A DNA stretch of 23,345 bases, from IMG/VR virus record IMGVR_UViG_3300043427_000802, positions 1-23,345 of that record, one strand, 5' to 3'. A model generated the notes under the pieces. The model was not told the DNA's origin, searched no databases, and worked only from the letters and a program-made list of their open reading frames with translations. Every line of letters starts with the position of its first letter. Position 1 is the first letter of the stretch. The stretch is from a virus. A program made the translations under genes and the position numbers. Below are positions 1 through 22,640 of the stretch, in pieces.

Positions 1-1523
1 TTTTCTGCTTGCTTACGCTTAGCATAATCCATATAAGATTCGCCTGGTTTTAGTTGACCCTCAAAGACTTGAGTTTCTTCATTACGTACTGAAGCAAGTA
101 AATCATCTAACTTACTAGACTTCTTTTTCTTAGCAGGTGCTTTTGCCTTTGGTTTTGCAGTTGCTTTTGGTGCAGATGCTTTTGGTGCAGATACTTTTTT
201 AGTTGCTGCCTTTGCTTTCGGTGGAGTTGTTGCACTACCTTCCCAAGGATCAGAAGGTTTTTCAGCTTTCTTTGGTGCTGCTTTTGGTGATTCTACTTTT
301 TTAGTCTCTCCACCTTCCATCTTGCGAGCAACATTTCTCGCTCCTCTAGAAACTGATCTTGCACCACTTGCGACTGCTTTTCTAAGTCCACTCTTTAGTT
401 TGGAACCAATTCTGGAAAGCAATCCTGGACGCTTCTCTGAACTAGAAGATGTAGAGGAACTTGAAGATGATCCCGAACCTGAAGAAGAACCACCTTTTCC
501 TCTTTCATATCCTTTTCCAAACTCTCTTTTAACTGCTCTTGCTCCTCTTACAGCAGCACCAGCAGCATAACCAGCACCACGAGCAACAGCACCACCAACT
601 TTCTTAACAGCAGTTTTTACTTTTTCAACTCTATCACTTTTGATTTTAGTATCATGGCCTAAAGTAACTTTTGCTTCATTTAGTAAGTCAGTAGAAAAAT
701 CAAGAGATTCAATCAATAAATCTTCAACTTCTTCTACATCGTATCCCTCCTCAAGACACTCATAGAAGAACTCTTCAACAACTTCTTCAATTAAAGAATC
801 TGAAAGAAGCACGAGTTCATTATCAGTAAACTCATCAAGAACTCCAGAAACTTCAACCATTTCAAGAAGAGTTCCGCCAATCTCCTCAACTGTTTCAGTC
901 AGTTTAGGATTGATCGTGATTTTATTTTCTACCTTCTTTTCTTTAATCTTTTTGTTTGCTTCAACATCATCCATAACTTCAGAAAGATCTTGTCTCCAAT
1001 TAGAGAAACCCTCTTTCATTCCCTTCTTCTGAGAGATTGCTTTTCCAATTGCCTTACGACGTTTATGGAGATACTTATCAGACTTATCACTATCCCCATC
1101 ATTATCAATATCAGCATCCTCTTGGCCTACTGGATCCAATGCTTCCTTAGTTACCAATCCAACAACGTTCTTGTTTTTCTTAGTAACTTTATCCATAAAA
1201 GCAATACTTTGCTTTTGTTGATTTGCATAATCTTTTCCTTTAGAAGGAGAAAGTCTCTTATCACCAGTCTTTCTTTCAGCAGATGCTGCTCTTCTCATTT
1301 CAGGATCAGAACCTTTTACTGCTTCATCTATTTCAGACTCTTCTTTAATTTTATTCTTTTCTCTCATTGCCTTTGCTTTTGCAAGAGTTCTTTCTCTTGC
1401 AGCATCTTGCTCAGACTTTGGAATAGCAGTTACAGCACCAAGACGCTCTGCAGGTTTACCGGGAACTGCAGATTCAGCAATGTTCTCCAAGTAAACCTTA
1501 GAGAGATCGTTAAGATGAGTCAT
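1..1523 (-). CDS. Large virion/prohead-precursor-like protein, 3' end beyond window (partial)
   Basis: Open frame from ATG at 1523 with no stop before the window edge, about 507 codons seen. The N-terminus reads MTHLNDLSKVYLENIAES, with an IAE tripeptide at residues 15-17 that fits the T4 gp21 prohead-protease consensus (I/L-x-E). Residues 138-149 form a full EF-hand/dockerin-type loop (Asp at loop positions 1, 3, 5, 7, 9 and 12, Gly at 6), followed by a basic helix. Residues about 205-285 are acidic and helical. Then come a Gly/Ala/Arg stretch, a Ser-rich linker (about 346-362) and a Lys/Ala/Pro-rich tail (about 410-475) with repeated APKAS/APKAT units. I recognise no enzyme domain. Proteins of this style in T4-like marine phages are usually annotated as virion structural. 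The late-promoter box just upstream and the neighbouring putative capsid-targeted gene support a structural or prohead-core role, which is inference. Confidence 0.8.
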   Translation of the reverse strand, partial: MTHLNDLSKVYLENIAESAVPGKPAERLGAVTAIPKSEQDAARERTLAKAKAMREKNKIKEESEIDEAVKGSDPEMRRAASAERKTGDKRLSPSKGKDYANQQKQSIAFMDKVTKKNKNVVGLVTKEALDPVGQEDADIDNDGDSDKSDKYLHKRRKAIGKAISQKKGMKEGFSNWRQDLSEVMDDVEANKKIKEKKVENKITINPKLTETVEEIGGTLLEMVEVSGVLDEFTDNELVLLSDSLIEEVVEEFFYECLEEGYDVEEVEDLLIESLDFSTDLLNEAKVTLGHDTKIKSDRVEKVKTAVKKVGGAVARGAGYAAGAAVRGARAVKREFGKGYERGKGGSSSGSGSSSSSSTSSSSEKRPGLLSRIGSKLKSGLRKAVASGARSVSRGARNVARKMEGGETKKVESPKAAPKKAEKPSDPWEGSATTPPKAKAATKKVSAPKASAPKATAKPKAKAPAKKKKSSKLDDLLASVRNEETQVFEGQLKPGESYMDYAKRKQAE

Positions 1524-1534
1524 GAGTATAAGTT

Positions 1535-2827
1535 TTACTTTTTAACCTTATATTTATTTATGAATTCCTTAATTTGTTTATATCCACTATAAGGTTTTGC
1601 TCCATACTGTAGATTTGTTTTGTCTCCTTTTTCAAATCCAGGAGTCATATCAACGGCATGTTTAAAATATCCACCTGTTCCAACGAGTGTGTTTGGTTTC
1701 CCAGGAGCTCTCATTTTCTTTTCAACCTTCACTTCAGTATATTCCATCACGTCTCTTATCCATGATTTGAACATACACTCTTCTTCAGTAACACAAATCA
1801 GGTAGTTTGTTCCTCTACGAATAATCTTCCCTACAAGACCAGTGTTTAAGTTCTCTACAATATCACCAATTCTAAAAATTTTTCCTTTCAGATAATTTTC
1901 ACGAAGAGTTTCTACATCATACTTTGGAGCAATCTGCCAAAGTTCTGCAACCTCTTTTTTCTTTTTCTTTGCACCCATTCCTTGACGAACTGCATCAAAG
2001 AGTGCTTGCGTATCACCATCATCAAGTGTCTTTGGTGTTCCTCTACGGAATGATTTAAAGTCATCATCAATAACTGCTTTTCTCATTTTGGATGCAGACA
2101 TTCCTTCTACACCCTCTGCATCAGCATCACGAACACCAGCAGAAATTACACGAATCAAATCAAAGTTATAAAGATCTCCATTGTATTTTTGAGCTAAGTT
2201 TTCAAATTCTGCTTGACGATCAGAACCCACAACAATATTAACATTTACATATCCCGATTCTGCGGCTGCAATCAATACATTAAATATCGATTTCATTTCA
2301 TCATCATTAATAATGTTCTCTTTAAAATCAGGGAACATCTTCTTCATAAACGAAATCTTCATATCAGGGTCTAATGGATTCTTTTTGGGATCCTGAGTTC
2401 TTGAAGGATAGATCTTAAGATCTCCATCAGTTGCTGCTTTTCTTGCAGCCTTTAATAGTTTCTCATGTCCTACTGTTGGGGGATTAAAACGACCAAATGC
2501 AACTGTTAAAGTATCACTACCAGTATCAACACCACCAGTTGGAGGTGCTGCTTTTGCTGGTGCTTTTGGTACTGGTTCTGCTTTTGGTTTTGCTGCTTTT
2601 TTTTCTGGTGCTGGTGATTTTCCTACTGCATCTTTTGGTTGATCTTTTCCACCTTCTACTCTACCTTTATCATAAAATACTAGTTTCCCCTTTTCTGTTT
2701 TCGCAACAAATTCTCCACGACTGTCCAACCAACCGCCATGGCCATCACTCTTGAGATTTAACTTCTTCGCTTGCAGTGATGCTTGCGTTTGAGTTGCCTC
2801 ATTTAGAAATTGGAAAAAACTCTTCAT
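1535..2827 (-). CDS. Nucleotidyltransferase-like protein with capsid-targeting-like N-terminus and SH3/KOW-like C-terminal domain
   Basis: 430 aa. Residues 1-11 read MKSFFQFLNEA, closely resembling the T4 internal-protein capsid-targeting sequence MKTYQEFIAEA; LNE at 8-10 fits gp21 cleavage after Glu10. A basic Lys/Ala/Pro linker (about 65-100) leads to a nucleotidylyltransferase core of the HxGH superfamily: GRFNPPTVGHEKLL carries TVGH in place of HxGH, and GMSASKMRKA corresponds to the ISSTKIR-type motif. The family transfers a nucleotidyl group (NMNAT, cytidylyltransferases), but the substrate here is unknown. A segment beginning FRIGDIVENLNTGLVGKIIRRG resembles an SH3/KOW-like beta barrel. 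It has its own late-promoter box and lies between virion-like genes. The fold call is fairly firm; packaging into the head is inference. Confidence 0.82.
   Translation of the reverse strand: MKSFFQFLNEATQTQASLQAKKLNLKSDGHGGWLDSRGEFVAKTEKGKLVFYDKGRVEGGKDQPKDAVGKSPAPEKKAAKPKAEPVPKAPAKAAPPTGGVDTGSDTLTVAFGRFNPPTVGHEKLLKAARKAATDGDLKIYPSRTQDPKKNPLDPDMKISFMKKMFPDFKENIINDDEMKSIFNVLIAAAESGYVNVNIVVGSDRQAEFENLAQKYNGDLYNFDLIRVISAGVRDADAEGVEGMSASKMRKAVIDDDFKSFRRGTPKTLDDGDTQALFDAVRQGMGAKKKKKEVAELWQIAPKYDVETLRENYLKGKIFRIGDIVENLNTGLVGKIIRRGTNYLICVTEEECMFKSWIRDVMEYTEVKVEKKMRAPGKPNTLVGTGGYFKHAVDMTPGFEKGDKTNLQYGAKPYSGYKQIKEFINKYKVKK
1551..1557 (-). promoter_or_regulatory. T4-type late promoter box (ATAAATA)
   Basis: Minus-strand ATAAATA 28 nt upstream of the ATG at 1523, inside the last codons of the nucleotidyltransferase gene. 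It matches the late -10 element used by T4-like phages (TATAAATA in T4, NATAAATA in cyanophages). No -35 is expected for this class. Confidence 0.5.
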
Positions 2828-2847: not shown

Positions 2848-2854
2848 TATTTAT
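2848..2854 (-). promoter_or_regulatory. T4-type late promoter box (ATAAATA)
   Basis: Minus-strand ATAAATA 20 nt upstream of the nucleotidyltransferase ATG (2827), touching the stop codon of the upstream gene. The spacing allows a very short leader. Confidence 0.55.
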
Positions 2855-4334: not shown

Positions 4335-4341
4335 TATTTAT
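4335..4341 (-). promoter_or_regulatory. Possible late promoter box (ATAAATA)
   Basis: Minus-strand ATAAATA starting at the last base of the stop codon of the 325-aa gene. It could serve the tRNA and the 436-aa gene, but transcripts would first cross the hairpin at 4316-4288. Confidence 0.35.
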
Positions 4342-5318
4342 CAGTCTTCATATCTAGTGTTTGGAACTGATTTACCTGCTCTCCTTGCTGCCTTATTTCC
4401 TGCTCCTCTATCTCTAGTTGGACCAGCATTTCCAGCCCAATATGCTGCGTTTTTAGCACGATTAGGACCTTTTCCAACTCTCTCGTCAGCAGGAGCATTC
4501 GTCCCACCACGCTTTCTTACCGGATTATCTTTTGATCCAGTTTCATCTCTTTTTATAAGAAGACCAAATGCCTGGTCTCCTGTTTTTGTATGATACTTCT
4601 TACGTGGATTTTGTCCTTTTGACTTATCACCTTTTACAACTTCTCTGTCCATAATCGCACGAAGTTTCTTTCTACTTTCAGGATTTCTGATTGCCTCATC
4701 AAGTTTCTCTTCTTTATCATCTTCTTCTTTTTCTTTCTTACTCTTCTTTCCCTTTTTCATTTCTTCCTCATCATCTTCATCTTCATCTTCATGCATCGCT
4801 TCAAGGATAATATCAATCACTTCTTTATCAAGAAGATTTGCCATCATCCACTGTGCTTCTTCCAGAGTTTCTGCATATCCTTCTGCTTGGAGGAACTCAA
4901 GAACTACATCAAAGATATCAAACTCTTCTCTATTAAGTTGCTTCTTCTCATTAGGAGTTAGAGCGCCTCTTTGTGCTCCTCTTGCTGCCTGCTTTGCCTT
5001 TACCTTAGGATCATCAGACTTGTGAGTATAACCATGAAGACCAGGAGAGGAAGAAGTAGTCTTACGGAAATCACCTCTTTGCTTTCTAGCAAGGTCTTGC
5101 CTTTGCTTTGCCTTTTTAGCATCACCGAAAGTTGATTTCTTCTCTAGTGCAGATGCTCTATCTGCAGCTTCACCACCACCAGTTGACTTAGCAATCTTTT
5201 GGCGAATAGGTGCTTCATCATAACCACGCTTTGCCATTGCAGTTGCTTCATCAACTTCTTGTGGAGCATTAATCTGCTGATATGCTTCCACCAATCCTCT
5301 AAGATCTTTGATATCCAT
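4341..5318 (-). CDS. Charged virion/prohead-like protein of unknown function
   Basis: 325 aa. The N-terminus MDIKDLRGLVEAYQQ holds LVE followed by Ala at residues 9-12, a fit to gp21-type (I/L)xE cleavage; a second LDE-Ala site lies near residue 207. Residues about 134-170 are helical and acidic (LEFLQAEGYAETLEEAQW). About 170-205 is a dense Glu/Asp/Lys block, and the C-terminal 80 residues are basic and Gly/Asn/Arg-rich, ending NTRYED. The acidic helical segment resembles one in the protein that runs off the left edge, which suggests a shared class. No enzyme motif is seen. It has a consensus late promoter, and its leader directly follows the module-ending terminator. The structural or prohead-core call is inference. 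Confidence 0.78.
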   Translation of the reverse strand: MDIKDLRGLVEAYQQINAPQEVDEATAMAKRGYDEAPIRQKIAKSTGGGEAADRASALEKKSTFGDAKKAKQRQDLARKQRGDFRKTTSSSPGLHGYTHKSDDPKVKAKQAARGAQRGALTPNEKKQLNREEFDIFDVVLEFLQAEGYAETLEEAQWMMANLLDKEVIDIILEAMHEDEDEDDEEEMKKGKKSKKEKEEDDKEEKLDEAIRNPESRKKLRAIMDREVVKGDKSKGQNPRKKYHTKTGDQAFGLLIKRDETGSKDNPVRKRGGTNAPADERVGKGPNRAKNAAYWAGNAGPTRDRGAGNKAARRAGKSVPNTRYED

Positions 5319-5338
5319 TTTGCAAATAGTTTTTTATT

Positions 5339-5346
5339 TATTTATA
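5339..5346 (-). promoter_or_regulatory. T4 late promoter, full consensus TATAAATA
   Basis: Exact TATAAATA on the minus strand, ending 20 nt before the ATG at 5318. It abuts the T-run of the terminator at 5346-5366, so one transcription unit ends and the next begins with no gap. Confidence 0.65.
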
Positions 5347-18760: not shown

Positions 18761-19852
18761 TCAGGATTGTTGTTCTTGGTCAACAGGCATCTGGAAATCA
18801 GCATCCACTTTATCGTACAGTTCTAGGAAGGCTTGTTTGGTTTCATCATCAAAACGATTCACACAAACTTGAATTGCCTTTGCCTTGTCCTGGAAGATGC
18901 TGTAAGCACGGATGATGTGAACCAGACGACGGGTGCTGATGATTTCCTCAATACCACCATCGTAGAAGGTCTTGCGGATGATATCTGCCCAGTCCACAAG
19001 GCGCTTACAGAAGTCTCGGTCTTCTACGCCAAGATCCAGAGCGATGCCTTCCAGGATCTTCTGCTCAGTGGCAGGGGCAGGATAGGACTGCTCAAAGGTC
19101 ACAGGGAAACGCTCAAGGAATGCCTCGTTGAGCACGTTGGTGCCGATGAAGCGGCCATCGTCAGAACCTTTGCCCTTAGTGTTGGCGGTAGCAATCACAT
19201 TAAAACCAGCGGCAGGTTTCACCCAGCGACCAATCTTTTTCAGGAAAACACCTTTACCTTCCAGAATAGATTGAAGACAGAGAATTTTGTTAGAAGCAAG
19301 ATCGATCTCATCAAGGAGAAGAACTGCTCCTCGTTCCAGTGCTTCAATTACAGGACCATTATGCCATGCGGTGCTTCCATCAATAAGCCTGAAACCACCA
19401 ATAAGATCGTCTTCATCAGTCTCGATCGTAATGTTTACACGAATCAGTTCACGCTTAAGTTGAGCACACGCTTGCTCAACACTGAACGTTTTACCGTTAC
19501 CCGAAAGACCCGTGATAAACGCAGGGTAGAAGATACGGGACTGAATAATTTTTTTAATATCACCAAAGTTACCAAACTTGACGAAGGTATCATCTTTATC
19601 AGGAATGAGATTTTGTTCGATAGGAGGGACCACTGCGGGTGCTTGGAAAGTACGTTCGATTTCTTCTACTTTTTGTTGTGTCACTTCAAGATTCCATTTA
19701 CCGCGGCTAACTTTAAACTGATCAAGTTTTTTAGTAACGGTTTGATAGTTAGCATCGTTCAGATTACACCAAGCACGAATATCAGCCCCAGTAATGGTGT
19801 TCCCATACAGGTTCTGAAGAGAAGTGCGGATGTAGTCGGAGGAGAGTGCCAT
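18761..19852 (-). CDS. cobS: CobS-like AAA+ ATPase (MoxR/chelatase type)
   Basis: 363 aa from the ATG at 19852; the 38 codons open upstream cross a hairpin and promoter-like element and are not family sequence. Walker A is GLSGNGKT (115-122), Walker B LLLDEID (178-184), followed by ATANTKGKG and the FLERFP sensor/arginine-finger region. The N-terminal 70 residues are helical, possibly a DNA- or partner-binding part. Bacterial CobS is the ATPase of aerobic cobaltochelatase, working with VWA protein CobT and CobN. Cyanophage copies are usually listed as cobalamin auxiliary genes. Here a CobT-like VWA gene lies three genes upstream and no CobN is seen, so another MoxR/VWA remodelling role is equally possible. 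Confidence 0.9.
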   Translation of the reverse strand: MALSSDYIRTSLQNLYGNTITGADIRAWCNLNDANYQTVTKKLDQFKVSRGKWNLEVTQQKVEEIERTFQAPAVVPPIEQNLIPDKDDTFVKFGNFGDIKKIIQSRIFYPAFITGLSGNGKTFSVEQACAQLKRELIRVNITIETDEDDLIGGFRLIDGSTAWHNGPVIEALERGAVLLLDEIDLASNKILCLQSILEGKGVFLKKIGRWVKPAAGFNVIATANTKGKGSDDGRFIGTNVLNEAFLERFPVTFEQSYPAPATEQKILEGIALDLGVEDRDFCKRLVDWADIIRKTFYDGGIEEIISTRRLVHIIRAYSIFQDKAKAIQVCVNRFDDETKQAFLELYDKVDADFQMPVDQEQQS

Positions 19853-19916: not shown

Positions 19917-20102
19917 TCAGTTTGCCAACTGGTTCTTGAGCCCTTCAAGGTACTCATCACTTGCAATGTGTCCAGTGTAACCTGGATAATATTTTTCTAC
20001 AAGTGCGGGAATACCCATGGCAGTTGTGCTGTTATTACACTTAATCCATACTTCTTTAGTGTCGTATTTTATTACGTGTTCAAGTGAAAATTTAGTTTTC
20101 AT
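19917..20102 (-). CDS. Small hypothetical protein, 61 aa
   Basis: MKTKFSLEHVIKYDTKEVWIKC... ending LEGLKNQLAN. The ATG at 20102 lies 13 nt after the previous stop; a longer reading to 20204 would overlap the 112-aa gene out of frame. It looks like two or three strands followed by a helix (YTGHIASDEYLEGLKNQL). No recognised family. It is the last gene before the hairpin upstream of cobS. Confidence 0.6.
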   Translation of the reverse strand: MKTKFSLEHVIKYDTKEVWIKCNNSTTAMGIPALVEKYYPGYTGHIASDEYLEGLKNQLAN

Positions 20103-20115
20103 TTTATATTCGAAA

Positions 20116-20454
20116 CTAATTAAGTTCTCCCATTGCTTTTTGCTTACGAATCTTCTTAGGATTCTTCGTCTTGTCTGCAGAGTAGTTATTATCATTATCA
20201 TCATCTGGGTCTACAGCACTACGATGTCTTGTGCGTCTTTCTTCATCATCAATCTTTGCACGACTTCTTTTTGCTTCATCAGGAGAATAGGTTCTACCAC
20301 TGTTGTACCATTCTTTACCAACATGACCTCTCTTCTTAGCATCAGCAGAAGCTTCTCTACGTTTGAGTTTTCTGCGATTTGCTTTGAAATCTTTGAGAGT
20401 CATTCCCTCTTCAATAGCGTATGCTTCGGTGATAAATTCTTGAAATGTCTTCAT
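20116..20454 (-). CDS. Internal-protein-like protein with capsid-targeting N-terminus
   Basis: 112 aa. Residues 1-11 read MKTFQEFITEA, identical at 9 of 11 positions to the T4 IPII/IPIII capsid-targeting sequence MKTYQEFIAEA; ITE at 8-10 fits gp21 cleavage after Glu10. The rest is highly charged (Lys/Arg/Glu/Asp, e.g. RRKLKRREASADAKKRG; VDPDDDNDNN) and probably disordered. In T4 such proteins are packed into the prohead, trimmed and injected with the DNA. It starts within the stop of the CobT-like gene (ATGA), so the two are coupled. Packaging is inferred from the N-terminus; the body gives no function. Confidence 0.75.
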   Translation of the reverse strand: MKTFQEFITEAYAIEEGMTLKDFKANRRKLKRREASADAKKRGHVGKEWYNSGRTYSPDEAKRSRAKIDDEERRTRHRSAVDPDDDNDNNYSADKTKNPKKIRKQKAMGELN

Positions 20455-22640
20455 GCTACCAAAGAAATAAATTCTCCTAATACTTTTTTATTTAGTTTCT
20501 TAGTCTTCAGAGACTTGACAAAAGCAGATTTAATTTGTGACTTAGTTGCATCATCAGCAACTTCAAATTCAGTATCCTGAGAAAGTGCAGAAGCAGATAG
20601 TCCAAAGTAAGCATCATAACCAGAGTTGGTAACAGTAAAACTTTTCAGTTTCCTCCAATCACTCTGAATTTTTTGATACTGCTTATCATTGTGAGAGTGA
20701 TACATACTCACAAATCGACTAAAGTTGCGGCTTTCAAGAACACGAATGCCAATGAAGTTCATCGTTGAAAACTTATCTTTCAAATTCCTCAGAAGAACAT
20801 CGGTAAATTCATGATATGCATATCCAAACTTATAGGTTGTCCCAAGTTTTCGATCACGAAGAAATGTAAGTTCAGGATAAACATATCCAGTACCAATATA
20901 AGTTTCTGTCGAATTATGACGACGATTTGACTCTTTGTGCCGAATAAGTTGATTTGCTTCACCGTCAGTCAGAATAATACACTGAACTTTTTGCAGTTTG
21001 TTTTCTTTTTGAAACTTAGGAAGAATTTGATGAAGAGTGATTAGTGCTTCATTCAGAGGAGTTCCTGAAAGGCAAAGACGACTGGGATAAGTGTAATGAG
21101 AACTGTAACTTCTAGCAAAGCAAAAAGCAAGACGCCAAATATTCAGCATTTGATTTTCAAGTTCTTTACCAGAAACTTTGCTGGTAAGAACATTCATCAT
21201 TGAAAAAGTTTCATCAACGACCAATAGCCCATCCTTTTTCTGATAATGAGGGATACGATCTGCAGAAAGATAACGGTCATTCTCATAATCATACTCACCA
21301 CGCCGCCACTCATTGGTAAAGGCATAAACCTCAAATGGAATAGATACCTTCTTACAGAACCACACAAGATTAAAGAGTTGTTTGCAAGTATCAAGCATAA
21401 CATCTGACATAGAACCACTCCAGTCCAAAACAAATACCAGACCATGATTCTTACCATCAGGAATCACAGAAACTTTCTTGAAGAGATCTTCATTGTACTT
21501 GTAAGTGTGAAGCCGTGAAGTATCAAGAACACCAGTGCGAGCAGTTGAAGCACGAGCATATTGATCTGCTGCCTTACGGCATTCAAACTCTTTCACAAGG
21601 TAGTTAACTTCTTTCTGTGCAGAGGACTTGAACTTCTTAAACTCAAGGTCAGATTCTTTGTAAAGGTTTGCTGGAGTAAATGCCTTATCTTTAGCATATT
21701 CATTGTGAAGTTTCTGTTGATGAGAAAAAGAAGAATCGATTTCCTTATGCACCTCAGAATTTTTGCCAATGATAGTGTCAAGATTGACTTGAGGAATCTC
21801 AACGTAAATATTTTCTTCACCAGTGTCTTTTACAAGATCACGGATCTTGTCCTCCAAAGATTCTGCAGTGCGAACTTCTGGGTCATCTTGATCTGCAGAT
21901 GATTCTACTGGAGTTTCTTCACCTTGAGCCGTACCACCATAAGACTCATCACCTTCTTTAGGTTGGGAGTTATTACTATCTCCATCTTGTTCAGAAGAGG
22001 AATCATTAGTCTCCACAATTTCGTTAGAAGGAGACTGCGAACTTCCCTGAGTTTCGTGAGAATCAAAGTCAGAAACCTTTTGTTCCTTTTCTTTTTCTTT
22101 CTTACAATACTTGTAAAGTTCTTCAGCAGCAATCAAAGTGTCTGCAAAAGTTTCAGTGGCATTGATAAGATCAATGATTTCCTGTTCCTCAGAGTTGAAA
22201 TTTAAGTTAACGAAATTACCGACTTTGAAATAAAGGTTAGCACGATCAGCTAAATTGAAGGAGGTAACGTCTTCTTCAGAAATCTGAAAGAAGTCTTCTT
22301 CGTTCAGTTCTTTATAACCATTAAAGAAAGTCTTAGCAAGTCCAGCATACTTGCGCTTCATCAACTTCTCAATACGTGCATCCTCAACAACATTCACAAA
22401 CTGTTGAGGAACTTTTGCGATTTCAGTCCAATCCTCATCAGGCGTAAAGAGAGCGTGGCCCACTTCATGACCCACCAGAAGGTCATACACAAGTCCACTT
22501 GCCCTTTCCCACAGAGGCAGAGTCAGTACACGAGTATGGACGTTGAAACAAGCAGTAGAGACTTTCTTGTGCTCCACTACAAGGTCTTCAGTAGCAAGCA
22601 GTTTGGCAAGTTGGGATTTGATTTCGTGACGGACTGCCAT
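20451..22640 (-). CDS. CobT-like VWA protein with HEVGH metalloprotease-like motif
   Basis: 729 aa. N-terminal domain: HEVGH at 58-62 and NVVEDARIE with Glu87, a zinc-peptidase-like H,H,E set. Residues about 175-260 are a Ser/Glu/Asp/Gln-rich linker. The C-terminal VWA domain has a MIDAS: DWSGS (Asp406, Ser408, Ser410), SGTPLNEAL with a candidate Thr, and LTDGEAN (Asp559). N-domain, acidic linker and C-terminal VWA is the CobT architecture. With CobS-like ATPases such proteins form MoxR/VWA assemblies that remodel substrates or insert metals. The intact HExxH...E pattern suggests a protease-like function; whether it cuts anything is unknown. Coupled by ATGA to the internal-protein-like gene. 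Confidence 0.85.
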   Translation of the reverse strand: MAVRHEIKSQLAKLLATEDLVVEHKKVSTACFNVHTRVLTLPLWERASGLVYDLLVGHEVGHALFTPDEDWTEIAKVPQQFVNVVEDARIEKLMKRKYAGLAKTFFNGYKELNEEDFFQISEEDVTSFNLADRANLYFKVGNFVNLNFNSEEQEIIDLINATETFADTLIAAEELYKYCKKEKEKEQKVSDFDSHETQGSSQSPSNEIVETNDSSSEQDGDSNNSQPKEGDESYGGTAQGEETPVESSADQDDPEVRTAESLEDKIRDLVKDTGEENIYVEIPQVNLDTIIGKNSEVHKEIDSSFSHQQKLHNEYAKDKAFTPANLYKESDLEFKKFKSSAQKEVNYLVKEFECRKAADQYARASTARTGVLDTSRLHTYKYNEDLFKKVSVIPDGKNHGLVFVLDWSGSMSDVMLDTCKQLFNLVWFCKKVSIPFEVYAFTNEWRRGEYDYENDRYLSADRIPHYQKKDGLLVVDETFSMMNVLTSKVSGKELENQMLNIWRLAFCFARSYSSHYTYPSRLCLSGTPLNEALITLHQILPKFQKENKLQKVQCIILTDGEANQLIRHKESNRRHNSTETYIGTGYVYPELTFLRDRKLGTTYKFGYAYHEFTDVLLRNLKDKFSTMNFIGIRVLESRNFSRFVSMYHSHNDKQYQKIQSDWRKLKSFTVTNSGYDAYFGLSASALSQDTEFEVADDATKSQIKSAFVKSLKTKKLNKKVLGEFISLVA

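Follow-up and report, generated by a model that had tools for sequence, protein, structure and literature searches.

A probable T4-type internal head protein gene at a cargo-swapping cassette site in a T4-like cyanophage

The locus and its gene neighbourhood

T4-like cyanophages are the dominant viruses of marine and freshwater picocyanobacteria, and the window analysed here, meaning the whole 23,345-base virus record, comes from such a phage; at the DNA level it most resembles phages of Synechococcus and Prochlorococcus and virus records from marine single cells, and no DNA match covers 80% of it. The replication arm lies on the minus strand, in the order SbcC-like (gp46-type) gene, small PHROG 3309 gene, 729-aa VWA/'peptidase' gene, the leader gene at 20116-20454, a 61-aa gene, a MoxR-type ATPase annotated CobS, a DUF3310 gene and gp45. 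The head cluster falls outside this 23-kb record; in the relative S-SZBM1, genes for portal, protease, core and capsid are present. The features around the leader gene are as follows.

20451..22640, minus strand: upstream 729-aa 'peptidase' gene with an HEVGH motif and a VWA-like part (PHROG 459, 7.5e-267)
20475..20483, minus strand: codon haplotype GTATTAGGA within the 3' end of the peptidase gene, associated with the ATGA-coupled cassette
20451..20454, minus strand: ATGA overlap of peptidase stop and leader gene start
20116..20454, minus strand: 112-aa internal-protein-like gene, leader plus basic module
20425..20454, minus strand: leader codons 1-10, MKTFQEFITE, capsid-targeting-like
20407..20424, minus strand: codons 11-16, AYAIEE, second putative Glu cleavage site (IEE↓G) directly before the module
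20119..20406, minus strand: basic module of 96 residues (GMTLKDFKANRR...KNPKKIRKQKAMGELN), pI about 10.1
19917..20102, minus strand: 61-aa MKTKF gene downstream, the opposite edge of the cassette site
18761..19852, minus strand: MoxR-type AAA+ ATPase, annotated CobS in cyanophages (PHROG 249; PF07728 and PF08406 CbbQ_C)

The first-pass annotation had described the upstream neighbour as CobT-like, a likeness that holds only loosely: the gene matches the PHROG 459 'peptidase' family, has no Pfam match over 20451-22640, and scores 12.7 bits against a curated NCBIfam cut-off of 779.45 for the putative cobaltochelatase TIGR02442. The ATPase at 18761-19852 likewise falls below its curated score (CobS TIGR01650, 68.8 against 558.55), and a cobalamin role for the pair is doubtful. 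As a side observation, the 'CobS' and 'peptidase' genes together resemble a MoxR ATPase (CbbQ_C) and a VWA protein (HEVGH).

Leader, putative processing sites and basic module

The gene at 20116-20454 opens with MKTFQEFITEAYAIEEGMTLKDFKANRR and encodes a protein starting MKTFQEFITEA. T4 IPII and IPIII, read from T4 itself, both begin MKTYQEFIAEA, so that nine of eleven residues are the same (differences Y4F and A9T), as the claim of near-identity to the T4 targeting peptide had it; the claimed translational coupling is equally present, the start codon overlapping the VWA/'peptidase' stop in the ATGA at 20451-20454. The T4 prohead protease follows the rule [I/L]-x-E. The targeting-peptide aromatics at positions 4 and 7 are retained (MKTFQEF against T4 MKTYQEF), as are a Glu at position 10 and a hydrophobic residue at position 8 (ITE↓A), followed by the second putative site IEE↓G. 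According to the available text of the source, the aromatics at 4 and 7 of T4 IPIII serve targeting and I8 and E10 serve processing, and F4, F7, I8 and E10 of the window's leader sit at these named positions (PMC9026906). Cutting after Glu is described for the T4, phiKZ and SPN3US proteases in the accessible part of another report (PMC5694885). The predicted mature product is small and basic, with 102 aa and pI 9.85 from residue 11, or 96 aa and pI 10.08 from residue 17.

Database searches with the leader gene protein returned no Pfam (E 0.1), NCBIfam or PADLOC match, PADLOC being empty for all five proteins submitted, and only weak PHROG matches confined to the N-terminus (8765 'internal virion protein', E 0.027; 2667 'internal head protein', E 0.054). 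A search of 84,980 bacterial and archaeal genomes gave 174 stretches matching a pattern, none of which encodes a relative of the protein. The AF2 model is helical and of low confidence (pLDDT 64.3, pTM 0.27); it offered no usable fold.

A cassette site with exchanged cargo

Relatives were drawn from two sets, the best 80 of 311 records encoding a peptidase relative, in which the first gene after the peptidase was scored, and, for the module, the best 80 of 143 relatives together with these peptidase loci; the counts therefore describe close relatives. Identical rows were removed before the context, promoter and haplotype counts. Four of the 80 peptidase loci end too soon to be scored. In the remaining 76, a T4-like leader gene occupies the site in 39, whereas 37 are empty, the peptidase being followed directly by the 61-aa gene (30 loci) or by cobS (7 loci). 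The 39 leader genes make up 28 distinct proteins with several unrelated cargos. Conservation of the N-terminus among relatives, on which the first-pass annotation had made its proposal depend, is thus found at the same site in about half of the scorable loci, and the retention of the leader before unrelated cargo suggests a resemblance to T4 that is more than chance. The gene is nevertheless dispensable, as the 37 loci without it indicate, and in some relatives the gene at this site begins 17-25 nt past the peptidase stop, uncoupled.

Labelled by cargo, the 77 rows including the window comprise SAM lyase (13), DWWHPDP type (8), KDF plus SAM (5), KDF alone (3), KDY plus SAM (3), SAM plus DWW (3), WVQ type (3), YNRR type (2) and none (37); the window's cassette is one of the three 'KDF alone' loci, and the label of locus L089 rests on a cut-short copy of 132 aa. 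A quick peptidase tree with 64 inner branches, 28 of them starred, requires at least 20 changes to account for presence or absence and at least 27 for the full set of labels; with shuffled presence labels the mean is 25.5 (range 20-31). Cassette presence is nearly independent of the peptidase tree, and even 99.2% identical peptidases can differ in cassette state (L113 against L111 and L112).

Checks of the site in isolates were few. No leader gene was found there in Bellamy, SynMITS9220M01, RB11-B, S-SM1 or S-SZBM1, and one is present in P-TIM68 (with purM between) and in the single-cell record AG-345-L05.

Possible exchange at the peptidase 3' end

The boundary of the exchanged segment may reach into the peptidase gene itself. 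The window's GTATTAGGA differs from the alternative GTTCTTGGT by four synonymous bases located 25-31 nt before the peptidase gene end. Window-type bases occur in 21/21 coupled cassettes at three of these bases and in 20/21 at the fourth, but in only 1/32 empty sites. Cramer's V is 0.96 at the four bases, no other position among the last 60 exceeds 0.5, and further upstream, within the 453 bases examined, association is at most 0.47. The exception, L116, carries a cassette-haplotype peptidase end that runs into ATGAAGACTAAATTTCC, the start of the 61-aa gene, and looks like a clean cassette loss between two ATGAAGAC copies. The 61-aa gene starts with ATGAARAC in 26/31 cassette loci and in 12/30 empty loci where it was found, a distribution that fits exchange of a segment beginning inside the peptidase gene, with short repeats at both starts.

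Whether GTATTAGGA is itself of use to the phage is finely balanced. At even odds, cassette turnover would proceed by homologous exchange from inside the peptidase 3' end, with GTATTAGGA as linked baggage and no regulatory role, as suggested by the drop in association from 0.96 at the four bases to 0.47 or less in blocks more than 60 nt upstream and by the apparent clean loss in L116. Against this, the synonymous differences create an AGGAG, resembling a ribosome-binding site, about 19 nt before the start codon, and selection on the mRNA is therefore possible.

SAM lyase as the commonest alternative cargo

The commonest alternative cargo is a SAM lyase. The curated cut-off of PF23780 (S-adenosylmethionine lyase) is reached by five of ten cassette proteins scanned (L083, L084, L105, L138, L146), while the other five gave no PF23780 match; the score given for the alternative cargo is 66.3 bits against a cut-off of 28. 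The window's own protein is not a SAM lyase, as it stays below the PF23780 cut-off and matches no Pfam family at E 0.1. An AF2 model of the SAM cargo from 16 sequences has low confidence (pLDDT 59.4, pTM 0.58), and the seven top-ranked Foldseek matches are all SAM lyases, led by T3 SAM lyase 8bb1 (E 4.8e-4), the sole match under E 0.001; when the cargo was searched by sequence against Protein Data Bank entries, singly and in profile form, only an unrelated kinase came back (E 0.45-0.57). G54, Y56, E70, S72 and Q98 are invariant in the 16 sequences and, by order and motifs in place of a residue-level alignment, may be read as Gly56, Tyr58, Glu69, Ser71 and Gln104 of Svi3-3, residues taken from the available text of PMC7877911.

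A leader-like start stands on a SAM lyase protein in P-TIM68, S-H34, S-CREM2 and AG-345-L05, where the SAM lyase gene directly follows the peptidase. The alternative cargo shares fold, profile and catalytic-position residues with phage SAM lyases (T3 SAMase, Svi3-3; PF23780); we know of no description of T3 SAMase as a head protein. A homologous SAM-lyase-type protein starting MNFVQLLESE is also encoded by Alishewanella phage vB_AspM_Slickus01 (L194, 3001-3606), and its occurrence in a phage of a non-cyanobacterial host implies that the cargo is spread more widely than cyanophages.

Basic modules and large polyproteins

The window's cargo, residues 17-112, belongs to the basic (KDF) module, which is rich in Lys and Arg. 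A profile of this module recognises 102 open frames among the retrieved loci, where the module is positioned behind a leader, behind other starts, or within frames of up to 1174 residues. The residue preceding it is Glu in 56/56 distinct contexts, with I, L or V at -3 in 55 and A in one; the P1' glycine in this count was set by the search pattern and hence is no test. The SAM lyase module is similarly preceded by Glu in 14/14 contexts, with I, L or V in 14/14, and the DWW module has its Glu one residue earlier in 12/13 and directly before in one. The SFCAR module (DUF6321-type) follows no Glu rule (Glu before it in 1/8 distinct contexts), so not every polyprotein module obeys.

Among named isolates, the module was found only in SSZBM1_194 of Synechococcus phage S-SZBM1, which is 70% identical over residues 10-110 but differs from the window's protein in its length of about 707 aa, its DUF3008-like start, its lack of a leader and its location in the structural cluster beside the small terminase gene. 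In S-SM1, SSM1_115, encoded between gp16 and gp17, holds WVQ, DWW and SFCAR-type stretches. At its far end the window itself encodes two large modular proteins (4341-5318 and 1-1523), and in L003 the RNPESRKK module of the former is also found behind KDF. Modular proteins of this very basic kind, reaching 1174 aa, recur in this material (window 1-1523 and 4341-5318; L013, L024, L065), with repeated motifs such as LDPVGxEDxDxDNDGDxDxxDxYLxxRRK.

Late boxes and timing of expression

The far end of the window also carries a second leader-bearing gene and several late boxes.

5335..5345, minus strand: overlapping ATAAATA boxes, 23-27 nt upstream of gene 4341-5318
4341..5318, minus strand: basic modular protein with the RNPESRKK module
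2848..2854, minus strand: ATAAATA box, 27 nt upstream of gene 1535-2827
1535..2827, minus strand: second leader-bearing protein, MKSFFQFLNEA plus cytidylyltransferase, 43% identical to S-SM1 SSM1_190 (T4-GC190)
1551..1561, minus strand: overlapping ATAAATA boxes, 34-38 nt upstream of the 1-1523 polyprotein
1..1523, minus strand: modular polyprotein, cut by the window edge

ATAAATA occurs as seven overlapping minus-strand matches in the window, all away from the leader gene, and never on the plus strand, so the reported absence of a late box upstream of the leader gene is borne out. Elsewhere, the box lies within 200 nt in 31/45 distinct upstream stretches of module genes, compared with 2/27 at peptidase-site cassette genes; another eight module loci are flagged as preceded by a peptidase end, and six of these have the box, 25-31 nt upstream. 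Taken together, these counts indicate two forms of the site, one coupled and without a box, as in the window, and one spaced and partly with a box. The sequence ACTAAATA, 42 nt upstream, could pass for a degenerate late box, but it was rejected as a feature specific to cassettes, since most of the empty sites inspected have it too.

The first-pass annotation had further regarded an internal protein gene among early replication genes as an anomaly of timing. The missing box stands, but the anomaly itself is weakened on two counts. In T4, denV and e flank the ipII and ipIII genes and 57B adjoins ipI, all outside the late head cluster, with no TATAAATA in the 150 nt upstream of ipI, ipII or ipIII, and an internal-protein gene outside that cluster is therefore not strange; additionally, cyanophage virion proteins are already known from the same genome arm. 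Sigma-70 and terminator scans performed no better than shuffles, and accordingly no promoter is claimed for the operon or the T4 ip genes. Expression of the leader gene is probably by read-through from the peptidase operon, early or middle, with or instead of late.

Virion proteomes

Purified S-CREM2 particles contained 52 proteins by mass spectrometry, including the SAM hydrolase ORF6 with 19 unique peptides, according to the accessible text (PMC10665884). ORF6 starts MKDFDSFLEE. The core motif [FYL]xxF[ILVMF]xE, which was fixed after the N-termini of detected S-CREM2 proteins had been viewed, occurs within the first 30 residues of 8 of 219 annotated S-CREM2 proteins, 7/8 of which are in the virion as against 45/211 of the others (Fisher p 2e-4), and in only 4/1498 internal 30-residue windows; ORF122, one of the seven, is probably a chance match. 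This was one of four leader patterns tried on S-CREM2, the others being a start-anchored pattern (3/5 detected, p 0.088), the same plus a cleavage site (3/3, p 0.013) and a wider pattern (7/13, p 0.015). The S-CREM2 authors, in the part of their text available, caution that CsCl purification might have carried such proteins along as contaminants (PMC10665884).

In S-SM1, SSM1_190 (T4-GC190) was detected in virions, as stated in the available text of PMC3037559. The S-SZBM1 virion list, taken from the accessible portion of PMC9146016, comprises 30 detected proteins; SSZBM1_194 is absent from it despite 30 tryptic peptides of 7-30 residues, as are the leader proteins SSZBM1_191 and SSZBM1_192, while SSZBM1_139 and SSZBM1_140 are present.

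Comparison with T4 internal proteins and interpretation

T4 leader-tagged internal proteins are injected anti-restriction factors. The window's gene shares with IPI, IPII and IPIII a near-identical leader, a predicted Glu processing site, a small basic cargo and a leader kept while the cargo varies; it differs in that its cargo is another one, with no sequence relation seen beyond the leader, that it lies in the replication arm of a cyanophage and overlaps a VWA peptidase gene by ATGA, and that its module is common to large polyproteins. In the text available, the targeting sequence is given as the one conserved part of the otherwise highly diverse T-even internal proteins (PMC3012670), and Ip1-3 are described as inhibitors of type IV restriction enzymes (PMC12373910). 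S-CREM2 ORF6, a homologue of the alternative cargo with a leader-like start and virion detection, differs in adjoining a DNA adenine methylase gene and not a peptidase, and the accessible text of PMC10665884 names no targeting leader.

The window gene thus resembles T4-type internal proteins in every feature that can be tested from sequence, and the 'internal-protein-like' label originally given to it gains support from the kept leader, the exchanged cargo, the Glu-type site before the cargo and the virion homologues, by which are meant the homologues of the alternative SAM cargo and of the window's 1535-2827 protein that mass spectrometry detected in virions. We call membership probable and estimate at about 0.78 the probability that the product of 20116-20454 is an internal head protein of T4 type, its gene occupying a cassette in which cargo is swapped. 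On this reading, residues 1-10 would be the capsid-targeting leader and would carry the precursor into the core of the prohead. There the prohead protease (a gp21 homologue) would cleave behind E10 (ITE↓A), with a probable second cut behind E16 (IEE↓G), to leave a mature product about 96-102 residues long, basic and probably devoid of a stable fold, which would stay in the head with the DNA and then be ejected into the cell. The site between the peptidase and the 61-aa gene would constitute the cassette, in which the leader stays and the cargo is swapped or lost by recombination. For the window's protein itself, packaging, cleavage and injection are inferred.

Two competing explanations merit consideration. 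The protein could be a packaged core or DNA-condensing component and not an injected effector, its basic module filling the core, being freed by the protease and neutralising DNA charge; this is a tentative reading, somewhat below even odds. It accommodates the recurrence of the same module in many large basic polyproteins, often with late boxes (31/45) and always behind a Glu site, as well as the module's pI of about 10 and the AF2 result without a stable fold. It fares less well with the absence of the cassette from 37/76 relatives, although many of the empty phages may hold the module elsewhere, and a structural role leaves unexplained why an enzyme-like SAM lyase occupies the same place in others. 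Alternatively, an accessory protein of early or middle infection, translated with the VWA peptidase and the MoxR ATPase and remaining cytoplasmic, might resemble the T4 leader by accident. The ATGA coupling, the missing late box and the position inside the peptidase-cobS pair would all agree with such a partner, yet a peptidase partner should keep its body and not its first ten residues, whereas here the leader is kept and the cargo changes; moreover, presence hardly follows the peptidase tree (20 changes; shuffled mean 25.5, range 20-31), some relatives have uncoupled starts 17-25 nt after the stop, and a late box precedes the gene in 6/8 further module loci. We consider this explanation improbable.

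Within the preferred reading of an internal head protein, the role of the window's cargo is graded separately. As other cargos include SAM lyase, the site most likely delivers proteins that aid the phage at entry. For this particular protein, a DNA-associated basic filler or takeover factor would be conceivable at slightly less than even odds, and a specific counter-defence function marginally less so.

Wider significance

More broadly, T4-like cyanophages may run a modular head-delivery system, in which interchangeable basic modules and enzymes, each headed by a protease site, are placed in polyproteins of the structural arm and are also exchanged, singly or in pairs behind a targeting leader, at a hot-swap site of the replication arm, with the prohead protease as processor and a changing protein set, including SAM lyase, ejected into the host; we regard the evidence for this generalisation as evenly poised. 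The open-access literature searched contained no report of a leader-tagged cargo site in cyanophages and none pairing a cyanophage with S-adenosylmethionine lyase, and named capsid targeting only in one reference list. The S-CREM2 virion SAM hydrolase has already been published, together with the idea that it protects entering DNA, in the accessible text of PMC10665884. What appears to be new is how three elements are linked: the leader, a hot-swap site next to the peptidase gene, and protease-delimited modules that also occur in polyproteins.

If the T4 logic of leader-tagged, injected factors also holds in these cyanophages, an N-terminal motif and one syntenic site would provide a route to injected counter-defence proteins in viruses of hosts whose defences are little known; SAM lyase, for its part, destroys a molecule needed by bacterial defences. 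The leader-like starts in S-CREM2 would also give a testable reason for the presence of non-structural proteins (SAM hydrolase, cytidylyltransferase, kinase) in cyanophage virion proteomes, and for a prohead protease, delimiting the packaged modules of a polyprotein would be an unusual task.

Two further proteins came to attention. T4 gp61.1 (54 aa; NC_000866 18966-19130, L168) starts MKTFKEFIKED and, like the window's gene, sits in a replication cluster, where it adjoins primase gene 61, although its cargo is unrelated; to our knowledge it has not been described as packaged, and it may be an unrecognised leader-tagged protein. S-CREM2 ORF12 (L192/L196), a virion protein annotated as Cas9, carries the leader-like LRFASFMAEA near its N-terminus, and as a possible packaged nuclease-like cargo it would be worth attention.
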